Origin: an uncultured Gammaproteobacteria bacterium
Lineage (GTDB): Bacteria > Pseudomonadota > Gammaproteobacteria > JAADHQ01
Direction of reading: 5' to 3'
NCBI GenBank assembly: GCA_947258655.1
Contig: CAMYJD010000019.1
Coordinates: forward strand, 1-41,149
Length of the DNA stretch: 41,149 nt
How positions within the stretch are numbered: the stretch's first letter is position 1; each line of letters begins with the position of its first letter. Shown piece by piece: positions 30,724 to 36,432 of the stretch. Made by a program: the position numbers and the translations under genes. The notes beneath the pieces were generated by a model. The model was not told the origin of the DNA. It searched no databases and worked only from the letters and a program-made list of their open reading frames with translations.

Positions 30724-33252
30724 TTATCCATTGTTATTATTGTTGTCCACACGGGTCCTGTGCAGGAATGGATAACGGTAACACACATGACTGAAGCACA
30801 TCACGACCGAGATGGCCATGGCGATGATTATCGGCAATGGCAGCCAGATCAGCCACAGCAGATTGCCCTTGTAGCTCTGCGGCCAGCGCAGCAGTTTTGC
30901 ACTCCATCTTGACAGTCTGAGCCAGGACAGCTTTTTTAGTCTGTCAACGGCAGAGTAGCGATAGCTTTTGATGATTATGAGTAAAAGCATAGTAAGCAGC
31001 AACGCCGTCGACAAGGAAACAAGGTTGATGGATTGCCGACTCCAGTCGTCAGGCAGGTAAGCAAAAACTGAATGCGCCTGGCGCAGGTTGATGCTGCCCA
31101 GTGTTTGCAGCAGCGAATCAACAGACACCCGGGTATCACGGAAGAACCACAGTAAAAAGGCGGCGGGTGCAAGCGTTGCGAACCATGCTGTCATTAGCCT
31201 CATGCGTAATGCACGAAAAAAACGCTTGTCCGCAACCCTGATAGTACGCCGCACCAGTCCACTTTGCTGGCACAGTGATTCATGCCAGGGTGATAGCGCT
31301 GTGCCTTCCCAGTCTGCATTGCTGTTGTAGGGATAAGGCTGCGCACAGTACAGGTAATGATCCCTGGGATCGGGAAAATCACCACCCTCCTGACCTGGAT
31401 TCATATAGCGCCTGATATAATGATCGGCATTGGCGTAGCCCTGGTTCATCAGCGCATACATTTCGATATCGCCAAAGGCATCCAGATCGGTACGCACCCG
31501 GGCCAGCTCACTGGCCGTAACCGGGGCATTGCTGTCATCGCGTATCTCGCCCGAGTCGATGCTGAACATGGCTAGGCTATGGAGTTCATGCGTACCGTGA
31601 AAGTCTTCGAGTCTTTGCTGAATGGTGTCAAGCAGGTCCTCGCAGCCCTGCTGGCCATTGCCATTAGTCTCGGTGTCGGCACGCGCGTGTCTATTGATAG
31701 CAGCAATAAAAGCAGCTTCACGACTAAGTGCGGATGAGACACGGTAACGTTCAAGCAGGTTGTCCCTGGTCTGACTGGCTTCACGATCACTGAGAATATT
31801 GATGATCCGCGTACTCATGCCGATGCGTCCTGATGATGATCGTTGCATCGGATTAAGGGGGCCGCCGGTATCACTGACAATGACATGATTGCAGTGTTCG
31901 TCCAATAGCCCGGTAATGCCGATATTATCAAATACACCGCCATCGGTAAGGCCGAGCCGGCTGACGACAATATCGTCATAGATGCCGGTGATTTGCAGCG
32001 GCGGGAACAGCGGGGGAAAATTGGCCGACGCAGCAACTGCTTGAGCGAGGGTCAGGCTGTTCCAGTCCTTGCTGATATTCGGGGATACATTCTCTGCCAG
32101 TCTCAGTAGAAAGAGCTCGTAAGTAAAATCGAGCATCAGCTTGCAGCGTTCATCGTCAGCACGCATCCATGTGTCGATGCGGTCACGGCTTATATGACCG
32201 ATCTCGCCAATCACGGCGACCAGCTTGTTCAGGTGCTGGTCCATGCTGAGACCACCACTGACAGGCGGATCCATAAGTGTCCCCGTGCGTAGATACCATG
32301 CCGGTAGTTTGGCCATGCGTAGCTTGCCCAGGTCTGCCTTGCACATTCGCGCAATAACGGGCGTCATCAGATCATCAAACAGTGACTGCAGTCCGTCGAT
32401 AGCTTTTTCATATTTCCCTTCGCGCCACCATTTGGCCATTATGTAATAAAGCGGATCGCCTTCGGTCTTGGTCTGCTCTTCGACAGTTGCTGCGGATTTC
32501 TTGCCGGCCACTAGTGCCAATGCCTTTTTTCTTTTCAGGATGTTGTCGATTTCATCCCGGCGGATATTGCCATGGTCCCAGTCGCCGATCTCTGCGGCCG
32601 AAAACCAGAAGCGCGCACCGGAATTAAGCGACGTGGCATTGATAATCAGGCGCGTGATAACAGATCCATTCGTTTCGACCTGACGACGGTTATAGGACTC
32701 AATTCCTTCCCTGAAATGCTGGCCACCGGGGCGCATCTTGATATCATTCAGGCCGATACGTCCGGGTGCCCACCAGCGCCTGAGCCAGTTCGGCACCCAC
32801 GCTTTGCCGGTCCAGTCACTGACGCTGATGTCCTTTTCCAGTTCACGCACGGTATGCTTATAAATGCAACGTTCATACAGGCGCGACATACGCCGCCCAA
32901 GGCTGTACTCGGTCAACATCACTCTGAGAATACCGAAGGGGTTCAGAAAAAGACGTACGCGCAGATTTTTCTTGATCGCTGTGCACATACGCTGTTCGAG
33001 CTGATCGATGATGCGTAGATAGTCGGCCTTGTCGAGCCTGGCCTTTGCGTCGATTTCACGTTTGAGCAGCAGAATATACAGGGCCCCGACAATCGATCCG
33101 CCCGACACCGTCGACAGTACCTCGACGTAGCGCAGCATATCCAGCTCGGCCATCCGCCGTAACACGCCGATATGGAATAGCGAGGCGCGGAAACCGCCAC
33201 CGGCCAGCGCAAGACCGAGTTTGTCCCTGTGGGTATTATTCATTTCCGTCAT
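30724..33252 (-). CDS. Patatin-like phospholipase with C-terminal membrane helices
   Basis: An 842-residue protein. The oxyanion loop is GGGFRASLF (residues 18-26), and the nucleophile serine lies in STVSGGSIVGALY (Ser50). The motif is T-x-S-x-G instead of the classical G-x-S-x-G. The catalytic aspartate is in LTDGGVFDNIG near residue 436. The central part (about 60-420) is larger than a minimal patatin domain. The last ~150 residues hold three hydrophobic helices (TAWFATLAPAAFLLWFF, SLSTALLLTMLLLIIIKSY and LLWLIWLPLPIIIAMAISVVM), so the protein is membrane-bound. Lipase or phospholipase activity is the family expectation. Convergent with the M48 gene (12-base gap). Confidence 0.87.
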   Translation of the reverse strand: MTEMNNTHRDKLGLALAGGGFRASLFHIGVLRRMAELDMLRYVEVLSTVSGGSIVGALYILLLKREIDAKARLDKADYLRIIDQLEQRMCTAIKKNLRVRLFLNPFGILRVMLTEYSLGRRMSRLYERCIYKHTVRELEKDISVSDWTGKAWVPNWLRRWWAPGRIGLNDIKMRPGGQHFREGIESYNRRQVETNGSVITRLIINATSLNSGARFWFSAAEIGDWDHGNIRRDEIDNILKRKKALALVAGKKSAATVEEQTKTEGDPLYYIMAKWWREGKYEKAIDGLQSLFDDLMTPVIARMCKADLGKLRMAKLPAWYLRTGTLMDPPVSGGLSMDQHLNKLVAVIGEIGHISRDRIDTWMRADDERCKLMLDFTYELFLLRLAENVSPNISKDWNSLTLAQAVAASANFPPLFPPLQITGIYDDIVVSRLGLTDGGVFDNIGITGLLDEHCNHVIVSDTGGPLNPMQRSSSGRIGMSTRIINILSDREASQTRDNLLERYRVSSALSREAAFIAAINRHARADTETNGNGQQGCEDLLDTIQQRLEDFHGTHELHSLAMFSIDSGEIRDDSNAPVTASELARVRTDLDAFGDIEMYALMNQGYANADHYIRRYMNPGQEGGDFPDPRDHYLYCAQPYPYNSNADWEGTALSPWHESLCQQSGLVRRTIRVADKRFFRALRMRLMTAWFATLAPAAFLLWFFRDTRVSVDSLLQTLGSINLRQAHSVFAYLPDDWSRQSINLVSLSTALLLTMLLLIIIKSYRYSAVDRLKKLSWLRLSRWSAKLLRWPQSYKGNLLWLIWLPLPIIIAMAISVVMCFSHVCYRYPFLHRTRVDNNNNNG

Positions 33253-33499: not shown

Positions 33500-35728
33500 C
33501 TATCCTACAGAGAGTTCGTTCGTATCACGGGCGCACTGTATCGCTAATTCAAATTGGGCTGATTCCTCGAACTCCTGCGTCAGGATCCAGAACTGGCTGA
33601 TATTCCTGTCCAGGTCAGGCAGGGACTTGATCGTGTTGCGGATACGCTCGCGATCGAAAAACGCAAACGGTTCATCGAGAATCAGGAACTGTTTGCCATG
33701 CTGGCCGGCCTCGACCAGGGCCTTGGAGATAGCCAGGCGCACGGCCAGCATGATCTGTCGCTGGGTGCCGCTGGACAGTTCGTCGAGGTCGGCAAAGTCA
33801 TTTTTCTCGGTGGCAAACACGCGCACACGCAGTTTGTCATCGATCTGGATCTGTTTGTAACGCCCTTCGGTCAGTTTGGGCATGACGGTGGCGGTATACT
33901 TGCTCAGTATCTGGTTGAAATGGGTGTAGATATTACTGCATGTGCCGGCGGTCAGTTGCAGGGCCATTTCACGCACCTTTACACGCTCACGGTGATCACG
34001 TAGTGATGGCTCCATGTTGTCGATAATGGTTTCGAGTTCGACGGCTTCCTTGACCCGCGCCAGGATGTCCTCTATTTCGCGATCGAGGCGGGTGGTCTTG
34101 TCATGCAGTTCCTCGCTGAGGCGGTTCAGGGTGCCGACGCGGGTGGCGATCGTATCACGCAATGTCGCGACATTGCTGGCATAGTCATCCAGGCGGTTGT
34201 TCAGTTTCTGCTGGTGATCGGCAAAGCCCTGTTCGCTCAGGAATGTACTGCCGACGCCTTCGATATAGTCTTCGAGTGCGGTGTTCAGATTGCTGTTATC
34301 GAGTGCCAGCAGTCCTTCGTATACTTGCGGCAAGGGCCTGTCTTGGAGATGGTCAAGCAGATCGGCCTGCTGACGCGCCGTTTGCAGTTTTTCACTGACC
34401 TCGTCAATGTCCTTGCTTTCCTCGCGGATGCGCGAACCAACGCGCATGGATAGCACAAACAGCAACAGTGTAATCACTGTCGCACCTACCGCAAAGCTCA
34501 ACAGCAAGGATGTTTCCACACCTGTCAGCCATGGCTGCCCGCTGAGCCAGGTGGACAGGTTGCTGTCCGGGGCCTGTGATAGCAGACCCCAGCTCGTCCA
34601 CAGGGCCAGTGCGGCCAGTACTGCAATGAACAACGCGCCTTTCATCAGGTTTTTATACAAACGCTTCGAGAACATACGGCGTTTCAATCGGGCAAGGTGT
34701 TTTGGTAATGGTATTGCGCCTTCACGGGGTTTGCTGCCACGCTCGCCCAGTTTCGCTGCCAGTTCGTCACGCACGCCCTGGCATTGTTCGCGCACCATTG
34801 CAAATACAGCAAGGCGCTCCTGCAGTGATTCGGTGTATTTTTTCAGCTTGCCGCCTGTACGCAGTTCCGTTTCCATTTCCAGCGTGTTGACCGAATCGCG
34901 CACATTCTCGATTGCATCTTCCACATTGCCCAGATGTTCCTGCCACTTGTTGATGGAAATATCACGACCGGCGGCGCTAAGCGCATGCCCACTTTCCTGT
35001 AACTGCGTACCGGCCTCACGGATTTGTGTAGACGTGCCCTGGATGACCTTGATCTCTTCCTTGTGCACGTTGATCTGTTCGGCGTACTGCTCTTTTTCAG
35101 TCTCAATGACGGGCAGTTTGTCTTCCTGGATATCGAGGTCCTCGACACTGGTACGGATACGGTTTTGTTCCAGCTCGATGGCGCCGATACTGTCATGCTC
35201 AAGGCTGATTTCATGCCTGAGGTCATCCATGATGTTTTCGATCGGCGCAGAACCGGCAATGCCTTTGATGGTTTCGGCCTGGGATGCAGACGACGTGATT
35301 TCCATCTGTGCCAGGTACAGCGAGTCCAGGTACTGTTCGAAATCAAAGCCGCAGGCATTGATGATCTCGTCCTGTACTGCCTGTGGACCGGTCGCGAACG
35401 GTACATCCTCTCCGCTACGGAAAAGTTCGGCTGAATGCATACCGTGCTTGTCGACCGAGCGTGTTATTTTATAGCTGTTTTCGCCGGTGCCGGTAAACAC
35501 CATGTCGATCGAACAGCTCGTCTCGCCCCAGCGTATCGTTCTGGTGATGTTATCCAGGTCATTGGAGAAGGTGCGCCCGAACAATGCGAAGCAAATGGTC
35601 TCGACAATGGCGGTCTTGCCGGATTCATTGGCGCCACTGATGGCGATGATGCCCTTGGCCGGGATATTGTCCAGATCCAGGCGGGTGTATTTGAGCACAT
35701 TGCTGGCATGTATGGAGTGGATGATCAT
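33500..35728 (-). CDS. Rad50/SbcC-like ATPase with a central transmembrane hairpin
   Basis: A 742-residue SMC-type ATPase. The Walker A is GANESGKT (residues 32-39) and the Q-loop Gln is near 141. The signature motif LSSGTQRQ is at 651-658 and Walker B FLILDEP at 681-687, with FFDRER after it. Coiled-coil arms run about 165-330 and 435-595. Where Rad50 would have its zinc hook, there are two hydrophobic helices instead (about 363-382 and 406-428), with a loop of about 23 residues between them and basic residues before the first. This suggests a membrane-anchored ATPase. The layout recalls the YhaN group (COG4717), but that is usually longer and paired with a nuclease gene; none is seen here. 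The ATG overlaps the stop of a 65-residue gene as ATGA. Function is unknown; DNA-end or membrane-linked DNA repair is an inference. Confidence 0.85.
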   Translation of the reverse strand: MIIHSIHASNVLKYTRLDLDNIPAKGIIAISGANESGKTAIVETICFALFGRTFSNDLDNITRTIRWGETSCSIDMVFTGTGENSYKITRSVDKHGMHSAELFRSGEDVPFATGPQAVQDEIINACGFDFEQYLDSLYLAQMEITSSASQAETIKGIAGSAPIENIMDDLRHEISLEHDSIGAIELEQNRIRTSVEDLDIQEDKLPVIETEKEQYAEQINVHKEEIKVIQGTSTQIREAGTQLQESGHALSAAGRDISINKWQEHLGNVEDAIENVRDSVNTLEMETELRTGGKLKKYTESLQERLAVFAMVREQCQGVRDELAAKLGERGSKPREGAIPLPKHLARLKRRMFSKRLYKNLMKGALFIAVLAALALWTSWGLLSQAPDSNLSTWLSGQPWLTGVETSLLLSFAVGATVITLLLFVLSMRVGSRIREESKDIDEVSEKLQTARQQADLLDHLQDRPLPQVYEGLLALDNSNLNTALEDYIEGVGSTFLSEQGFADHQQKLNNRLDDYASNVATLRDTIATRVGTLNRLSEELHDKTTRLDREIEDILARVKEAVELETIIDNMEPSLRDHRERVKVREMALQLTAGTCSNIYTHFNQILSKYTATVMPKLTEGRYKQIQIDDKLRVRVFATEKNDFADLDELSSGTQRQIMLAVRLAISKALVEAGQHGKQFLILDEPFAFFDRERIRNTIKSLPDLDRNISQFWILTQEFEESAQFELAIQCARDTNELSVG

Positions 35729-35922
35729 GGCTTGTAGTCCTTGTTGGCGGGTTCGAGCTTGTGCAGAACCAGCTTGACGGCCTGCTGGAAAATTTCCTTG
35801 TCGAACTCCGAATCCGAGCTGCGCAGGCGTTTTTCCTCTGCCTTGGCAAATTCCTGAAATTCATCAATTGCACTCTTGCGTGTGAAGCGTTGTTTGGATG
35901 TTAACCAGGACAGAATAGCCAT
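35725..35922 (-). CDS. 65-residue protein coupled to the membrane ATPase
   Basis: A short charged protein, MAILSWLTSKQRFTRKSAI at the start, then DEFQEFAKAEEKRLRSSDSEFDKEIFQQAVKLVLHKLEPANKDYKP. It looks helical, with no membrane segment or cysteines. Its stop overlaps the ATPase start (ATGA), so translation is probably coupled. AAGGAG lies eight bases before the ATG on the minus strand. I do not recognise the family. The tight coupling suggests a subunit or regulator of the ATPase. Confidence 0.75.
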   Translation of the reverse strand: MAILSWLTSKQRFTRKSAIDEFQEFAKAEEKRLRSSDSEFDKEIFQQAVKLVLHKLEPANKDYKP

Positions 35923-36154
35923 TGTTCTACTCCTTTTCTAATATTACAGTAATTATAATCCGTTTATATCCGATGGTCATCTGCTTCTGGTTGTTGTCAG
36001 GCAACTTTTACAGTTTATTACAATACCGCGTACACGTCTTTAGCCTTCCCGGGCATATATTATGCCGGCGGGCCTGATTCGTTAATGTGGAAGGCCTTGA
36101 ATATTGGCCTTATACAGGGATATCCCGGCGAGATAGCCGGGTGGGTAGGTGTGC
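35923..36154. other. Intergenic region with three hairpins
   Basis: 232 bases between two minus-strand genes. Three inverted repeats lie in a row: CCGG/GGCATA arms near 36048-36068, AAGGCC/GGCCTT at 36091-36111 and CCCGGC/GCCGGG at 36124-36141. The last is just after the 57-residue gene. The rest is AT-rich and should hold the ATPase operon promoter. Confidence 0.5.
36124..36141 (-). terminator. GC-rich hairpin after the 57-residue gene
   Basis: A 6-base stem CCCGGC/GCCGGG with a 6-base loop lies 14 bases after the stop. It has no T-tract on the minus strand, so it could terminate weakly or block read-through. Confidence 0.35.
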
Positions 36155-36328
36155 TCAGATCTGTTCCGGCTGTGCGCCCGGATTACGGTTACGCTCGTTA
36201 TACAGGGCTCGATAACTGGTCAGTAAAAAGCCCAGCGTAGCCTCCTGCTCGCGCGTCGGCCTGGACAGGTATTCGGCAATTTTGCGATTCAGCTGCCAAC
36301 GCCACCATTCATTATCGTCATTGCTCAT
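36155..36328 (-). CDS. Hypothetical small protein (57 residues)
   Basis: Unrecognised. Tryptophan-rich start (SNDDNEWWRWQLNRKIAEYLS), then helical, with a proline-rich polar tail. No signal or membrane segment. AGGAG lies about nine bases before the ATG at 36328 and decides the start against an upstream codon at 36361. The cupin and hemB genes are upstream on the same strand. Confidence 0.55.
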   Translation of the reverse strand: MSNDDNEWWRWQLNRKIAEYLSRPTREQEATLGFLLTSYRALYNERNRNPGAQPEQI

Positions 36329-36432
36329 GGTTCTATGCTCCTGGGTTAGACACGTGCACATTTGAACAACTCGTTATGACGGTTTTATGACAGTCGGAGT
36401 AAGATTTTGTGGCCCTGCATGTAGTTCAGCTA

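Follow-up and report, generated by a model that had tools for sequence, protein, structure and literature searches.

Gene pair at the locus

The stretch of DNA that we analysed (hereafter the window, an entire contig of 41,149 nt) comes from an uncultured gammaproteobacterium and carries on its reverse strand a gene for a 742-residue coiled-coil ATPase preceded by a small gene of 65 codons. The pair has hemB and a cupin-like gene on its upstream side and a gene for a patatin-like phospholipase on its downstream side. The features referred to below are:

33500..35728 (-), 742-aa ABC ATPase of the Rad50/SbcC coiled-coil type, with a membrane hairpin predicted at its apex
35612..35635 (-), Walker A, GANESGKT, residues 32-39
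34580..34636 (-), first hydrophobic helix of the hairpin, residues 365-383, mean Kyte-Doolittle hydropathy 2.08
34451..34507 (-), second hydrophobic helix of the hairpin, residues 408-426, mean Kyte-Doolittle hydropathy 2.65; the loop between the helices is predicted to be periplasmic
33755..33778 (-), ABC signature, LSSGTQRQ, residues 651-658 (SSGTQRQ, residues 652-658)
33653..33688 (-), Walker B and D-loop (FLILDEPFAFFD), residues 681-692
33575..33577 (-), Gln718 of the H-loop, in place of the His of Rad50 and YhaN
35725..35922 (-), gene for the helical 65-aa partner, sharing 4 nt (ATGA) with the start of the ATPase gene
35930..35934 (-), Shine-Dalgarno sequence AGGAG of the 65-aa gene, read from the sequence
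35952..35980 (-), candidate sigma-70-like promoter upstream of the pair, ATGACC-17-TATAAT, matching at 10/12 positions

The shared ATGA holds the stop codon of the 65-aa gene and the start codon of the ATPase gene, and a Shine-Dalgarno-like sequence stands before each of the two. Sigma-70-like sites at the pair showed no enrichment over shuffled sequences.

The ATPase has Rad50-type heads with an altered H-loop

A first-pass annotation of this DNA had claimed complete ATPase motifs at both ends of the protein, and this held: we found Walker A, a Q-loop (Q141), the signature, Walker B (FLILDEP, with catalytic glutamate E686) and the D-loop (D692). Among NCBIfam models the best matches were to Rad50 (best E-value 8e-23), and Rad50 heads were also the top matches in the PDB, with E-values of 1e-21 for the single sequence and 4e-44 for the family profile, matching at both ends. 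Across Pfam and NCBIfam the hits were to Rad50/SbcC/RecF-type heads, under every family cut-off save those of the generic AAA_23 and of FliD_C, and nearly all members of the ATPase family matched the Rad50/SbcC/RecF families. The FliD_C match falls in the coiled coil, occurs in 2/34 members and looks like coiled-coil similarity. Judged by these searches and motifs, the window ATPase belongs to the Rad50/SbcC-type coiled-coil ABC ATPase superfamily, its split head being closest to that of Rad50.

Motif counts come from an alignment of six YhaN proteins with 36 family members of the window's own class and 20 from a second class. In the family the glutamate corresponding to catalytic E686 was invariant (56/56 homologs), and the H-loop position was occupied by Gln in 52/56, where Rad50 and all six YhaN proteins have His. 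In ABC ATPases the H-loop His contacts the gamma-phosphate, and since Gln stands here in its place while the catalytic glutamate is retained, it is fair to infer that hydrolysis is slow or gated, which suggests that the protein is a switch or a tether and not the motor of a nuclease. One long-branch homolog (L051:7998-9848 (-), 616 aa, genome G305) has KAEVQRE where the others have the signature SSGTQRQ; it still has both Walker motifs and the hairpin, has a small gene with it, and is possibly a degenerate or repurposed ATPase.

A conserved hydrophobic hairpin at the coiled-coil apex

A hydropathy scan (19-residue windows, mean Kyte-Doolittle) located the two hydrophobic helices that the first-pass annotation had placed at the apex of the coiled coil, both at mid-chain, at residues 365-383 and 408-426. 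The helix pair was present in 54/56 homologs and always mid-protein, though total length spans 597 to ~890 residues; the other 2/56 have a single strong hydrophobic segment. No CxxC zinc hook was seen at the apex of the homologs examined. In homologs with the hairpin, Lys and Arg averaged 4.4 in the 15 residues before it and 3.9 in those after it, as compared with 1.1 within the loop of ~29 residues, a charge pattern that fits heads in the cytoplasm and a loop in the periplasm. The predicted periplasmic loop was 20-35 residues long where the hairpin is conserved, and two divergent ATPases of ~720 aa (L049 and L071, in genomes G106 and G222) have shortened hairpin loops of 6-11 residues.

How surprising such a hairpin is depends on how many sequences share it. 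Whole-sequence shuffles of a single sequence produced a comparable helix pair in 312/5000 trials (6%), so that one sequence alone is only moderately surprising and the force of the argument lies in the conservation. An AlphaFold model of the ATPase, run with 4 sequences, put both segments inside long helices (residues 341-385 and 406-459); since its heads were poorly modelled (pLDDT mostly 25-60, pTM 0.39), it supports helicity only. It is conceivable that the segments form a buried helical apex domain that never enters a membrane, as the 6% of shuffled trials and the two homologs with only one strong segment would allow, but position, hydrophobicity and positive-inside bias are conserved over two classes despite sequence divergence, and we consider a buried apex extremely improbable. 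The membrane reading of the first-pass annotation thus stood against that of a soluble fold, given a positive-inside hairpin in 54/56 homologs, and the ATPase is predicted to be an integral inner-membrane protein with both termini in the cytoplasm.

No nuclease partner

No metallophosphoesterase gene was found on the window contig, in keeping with the earlier observation that none lies on either side of the ATPase, and no homolog examined had an SbcD-type nuclease adjoining it. The counter-case named in the first-pass annotation, a nuclease-paired family in which this one locus had been rearranged, was thus not borne out. On whether a nuclease is encoded elsewhere, the answer was divided. SbcD was absent by genome search from the window genome (G000) and from G002, G003, G291, G064, G210, G299 and G018; what the search of G000 returned was a generic phosphoesterase of 274 aa that scored far below the cut-off, and the metallophosphoesterases found in that genome are generic and lie on other contigs. 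SbcD was present at unrelated loci in 5/21 genomes tested, and in six ATPase-carrier genomes a YhaO-like (SbcD-like) gene lies at a separate locus beside a true YhaN.

These YhaN proteins allowed a direct comparison with the window ATPase. The first-pass annotation had described the YhaN group as longer, nuclease-paired and equipped with similar helices; the first two points were right (~1160 aa, beside an SbcD-like gene), and the third failed for this phylum, as all six lack hydrophobic helices. At the H-loop they have His, and their Walker B reads DD where the window ATPase has DE. YhaN from Bacillus subtilis is membrane-associated, and the C-terminal head of YhaN/SbcE is related to that of the window ATPase (hhalign 97%). 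We rejected YhaN/SbcE membership: the window ATPase matched AAA_27 with an E-value of 0.08 only (weak AAA_27 matches occur in 12/34 family members), it has no adjacent YhaO-like gene, and real YhaN-YhaO pairs exist elsewhere. Because SbcD is at unrelated loci or absent, and YhaO-like genes sit beside their own YhaN, we regard the ATPase family as distinct from both SbcCD and YhaN.

The same data bear on the proposal that this is an SbcC/YhaN-type repair ATPase that has lost its linkage to a nuclease, with SbcD or YhaO acting in trans. Head homology to SbcC/Rad50 is what it would predict, and so is the SbcD or YhaO-like protein that some carriers encode elsewhere in the genome. However, SbcD is missing from the window genome, its two relatives and others, where the remaining phosphoesterases are generic and on other contigs; the YhaO-like proteins already adjoin an ATPase of their own; and H-loop residue, hairpin and partner all differ. 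Genome searches rule the proposal out for most carriers, and overall we consider it, already disfavoured, very unlikely.

A 65-residue protein encoded only with the ATPase

The 65-aa protein had no match in Pfam, NCBIfam or the PDB and no significant fold match; its predicted structure consists of three helices (pLDDT 73), and its family follows the pattern EF..FC.AE.ERR.NSD..FDE..Y..AV.LVL.KL. A profile of the small protein found it in 34/369 genomes of the class, all of them within the 36 ATPase carriers and at adjoining coordinates, so the gene adjoins the ATPase in nearly all homologs; among the 333 class genomes without the ATPase the profile found it in 0. In the second class it lies directly upstream of the ATPase in 18/20 loci (E-values of 3e-4 or less), one of the other two copies being degenerate and one cut by a contig end. 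The exceptions within the window's class (2/36, G106 and G222) are divergent and belong to one family; their ATPase genes stand, as we read the sequence, beside an hslR-type gene. At one of these loci, L049, another gene of 100 aa overlaps the ATPase start and may have taken the partner's place. Close to the window, conservation is higher for the small protein (72-86%) than for the ATPase (61-72%). The exclusive co-occurrence of the 65-aa gene with the ATPase is the strongest functional evidence that we have; being near-perfect, it implies functional coupling of the two genes, and leaves aside the role of the small protein, which the first-pass annotation had put forward as a possible effector.

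Distribution and inheritance

A profile search identified ATPase homologs in 36/369 sampled genomes of Gammaproteobacteria and in 33 genomes of the second class, which is probably Magnetococcia. In a tree of the ATPases built with a quick method, nearly all genomes fell together with others of their family, while the second class formed one clade with 99% support. Since the tree largely follows taxonomy, the ATPase looks inherited, and for the most part vertically, rather than part of a mobile defence system. Searches of plasmids and phages gave only partial head matches, with no relative spanning most of the ATPase, and viral contigs held no relatives. A pair on a contig labelled Desulfobulbaceae (L004, CALZHP010000050.1) nests inside the window's genus in the tree, which may reflect a binning error or a transfer. 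The genes beside the ATPase loci include housekeeping genes (hslVU, lysA-dapF, hemB, rimO), and when all neighbours were clustered, the 65-aa gene was the only one common to both classes.

These observations weigh on a role in anti-phage defence of the Lamassu or MADS type, in which the ATPase would be a sensor, the small protein an effector and membrane damage the output. The ATPase resembles Lamassu LmuB and MADS Mad3 in its Rad50-type heads and its size, with profile matches to 1e-22, and its presence is patchy (36/369). The LmuB and Mad3 matches are, however, generic head homology; we saw no LmuA/LmuC or MADS genes, no known effector and no near-full-length relative on phages, plasmids or viral contigs, and the family clustering in the tree and the housekeeping neighbours also speak against defence. 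The hook motif, carried by many LmuB proteins (PMC10586767), is missing, and a conserved hairpin and taxonomy-following inheritance set the window ATPase further apart. We rejected Lamassu/MADS membership, as there are no companion defence genes and no mobile or defence-island context and the 65-aa gene is the sole cross-class neighbour, and a defence role of this type seems to us quite unlikely.

A putative membrane-anchored clamp

The picture is wider than in the first-pass annotation: this is a conserved two-gene system that spans two classes and departs from Rad50 in three diagnostic features (the hairpin, the Gln H-loop and the 65-aa partner). ATPase and small gene look like an undescribed, old two-protein machine that ties ATPase heads to the inner membrane. 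Keyword searches of the literature turned up no account of a system like this, a negative that carries little weight.

The reading that we favour, and to which we give about an even chance, is a membrane-anchored Rad50-like clamp or switch with a dedicated small partner, whose heads would clamp a substrate, most likely DNA. It builds on the sequence family, the motifs, the conserved hairpin, the missing nuclease partner, the co-occurrence of the small gene and the pattern of inheritance, and from these we infer membrane insertion, partner binding, a clamp cycle and DNA as the substrate. A Rad50/SMC-type pair of heads would sit on a coiled coil that ends, on the side away from them, in a transmembrane hairpin, and the heads would hang ~15-28 nm into the cytoplasm from the inner membrane (an estimate from arm length). 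The helical 65-aa protein would be an obligate partner, most likely at the heads or the coiled-coil base, which is where Mre11, SbcD and kleisins bind in the relatives. On ATP binding the heads would close as a clamp on a substrate held at the membrane, and the 65-aa protein would set the loading or release of the clamp. DNA is the default substrate, since the nearest characterised relatives (Rad50, SbcC, SMC and RecF) act on DNA.

Known systems share parts of this arrangement. Like Rad50/SbcC, the window ATPase has a head split over the N- and C-terminal ends, a Q-loop, signature and Walker B, with coiled coil between; unlike Rad50/SbcC in the MR and SbcCD complexes, it has a predicted membrane hairpin for the zinc hook, no Mre11/SbcD gene, short arms, Gln for the H-loop His, and a dedicated 65-aa partner. 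SMC proteins (MukB, Smc) with their kleisins likewise combine heads, a coiled coil and a small non-ATPase partner, but we rejected membership of this group: the apex is a hydrophobic hairpin rather than a hinge, there is no kleisin or KITE gene, and the ~65-aa partner has no detectable homology and no Pfam match. SMC/Rad50 proteins are taken to be soluble, with an apex closed by a hinge or zinc hook and a nuclease or kleisin to serve them. Exchange of the hook for a membrane hairpin, of the nuclease for a 65-aa protein and of the H-loop His for Gln would be a new use of Rad50-type heads, and the family would give a direct way to ask if dedicated ATP-driven chromosome-to-membrane tethers exist in bacteria. 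The partner, lacking a Pfam or NCBIfam family, is a clean genetic marker.

Genomic neighbourhood and a possible link to the envelope

One finding goes against a clamp on DNA and points to the envelope instead. In the second class a gene for a PstS-family periplasmic phosphate-binding protein lies directly downstream of the ATPase in 18/20 loci (among L111-L130), mostly at a spacing of -4 to +15 nt; pstCAB was not noticed in the fetched neighbourhoods of these loci. An ATP-grasp-like gene, identified by one weak Pfam match, precedes the pair in 13/20 loci, and an MFS-like gene, read from the sequence, is near it in 8/20. None of these genes, PstS included, was found near the gammaproteobacterial ATPase loci. 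We rejected PstS as a general partner, as its closest gammaproteobacterial relatives are in ordinary pst operons and its co-occurrence is uninformative; we take the PstS neighbourhood as no more than a pointer, within one lineage, to a connection with the envelope or with phosphate.

The main rival to the clamp draws on this lead. In it the ATPase cycle would be relayed through coiled coil and hairpin to the periplasm, much as in FtsEX/MacB, where a cytoplasmic ATPase is likewise coupled to few membrane helices, and would act on an envelope process (in Magnetococcia, phosphate binding by PstS) without involving DNA. The conserved hairpin, with its predicted periplasmic loop of 20-35 residues, and the operon-like position of PstS agree with such a relay. 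The FtsEX/MacB ATPases are, however, transporter-type ABC domains whereas the heads here are of Rad50 type, a transmission device might be expected to have more than two helices, and no PstS gene lies near the gammaproteobacterial loci, the closest PstS relatives in that class being in ordinary pst operons; we consider this relay unlikely. A broader reading, which we hold tentatively and as rather less probable than the clamp, is that of an undescribed class of integral-membrane Rad50-like ATPases under the control of an obligate 65-aa subunit. Their coiled coil would join the cytoplasmic heads to the periplasmic loop as a lever or a tether, and they would link chromosome or nucleotide state to the envelope (in Magnetococcia, through phosphate binding by the operonic PstS).

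At the window itself, a 68-aa ORF upstream of the pair (36155-36361 (-)) had no family match, and a 59-aa counterpart occupies the same place in L006. The patatin-like phospholipase of the window (30724-33252 (-), 842 aa) has hydrophobic segments in its C-terminal part, and in L006/L053, as here, a gene of this kind follows the ATPase gene on the same strand.
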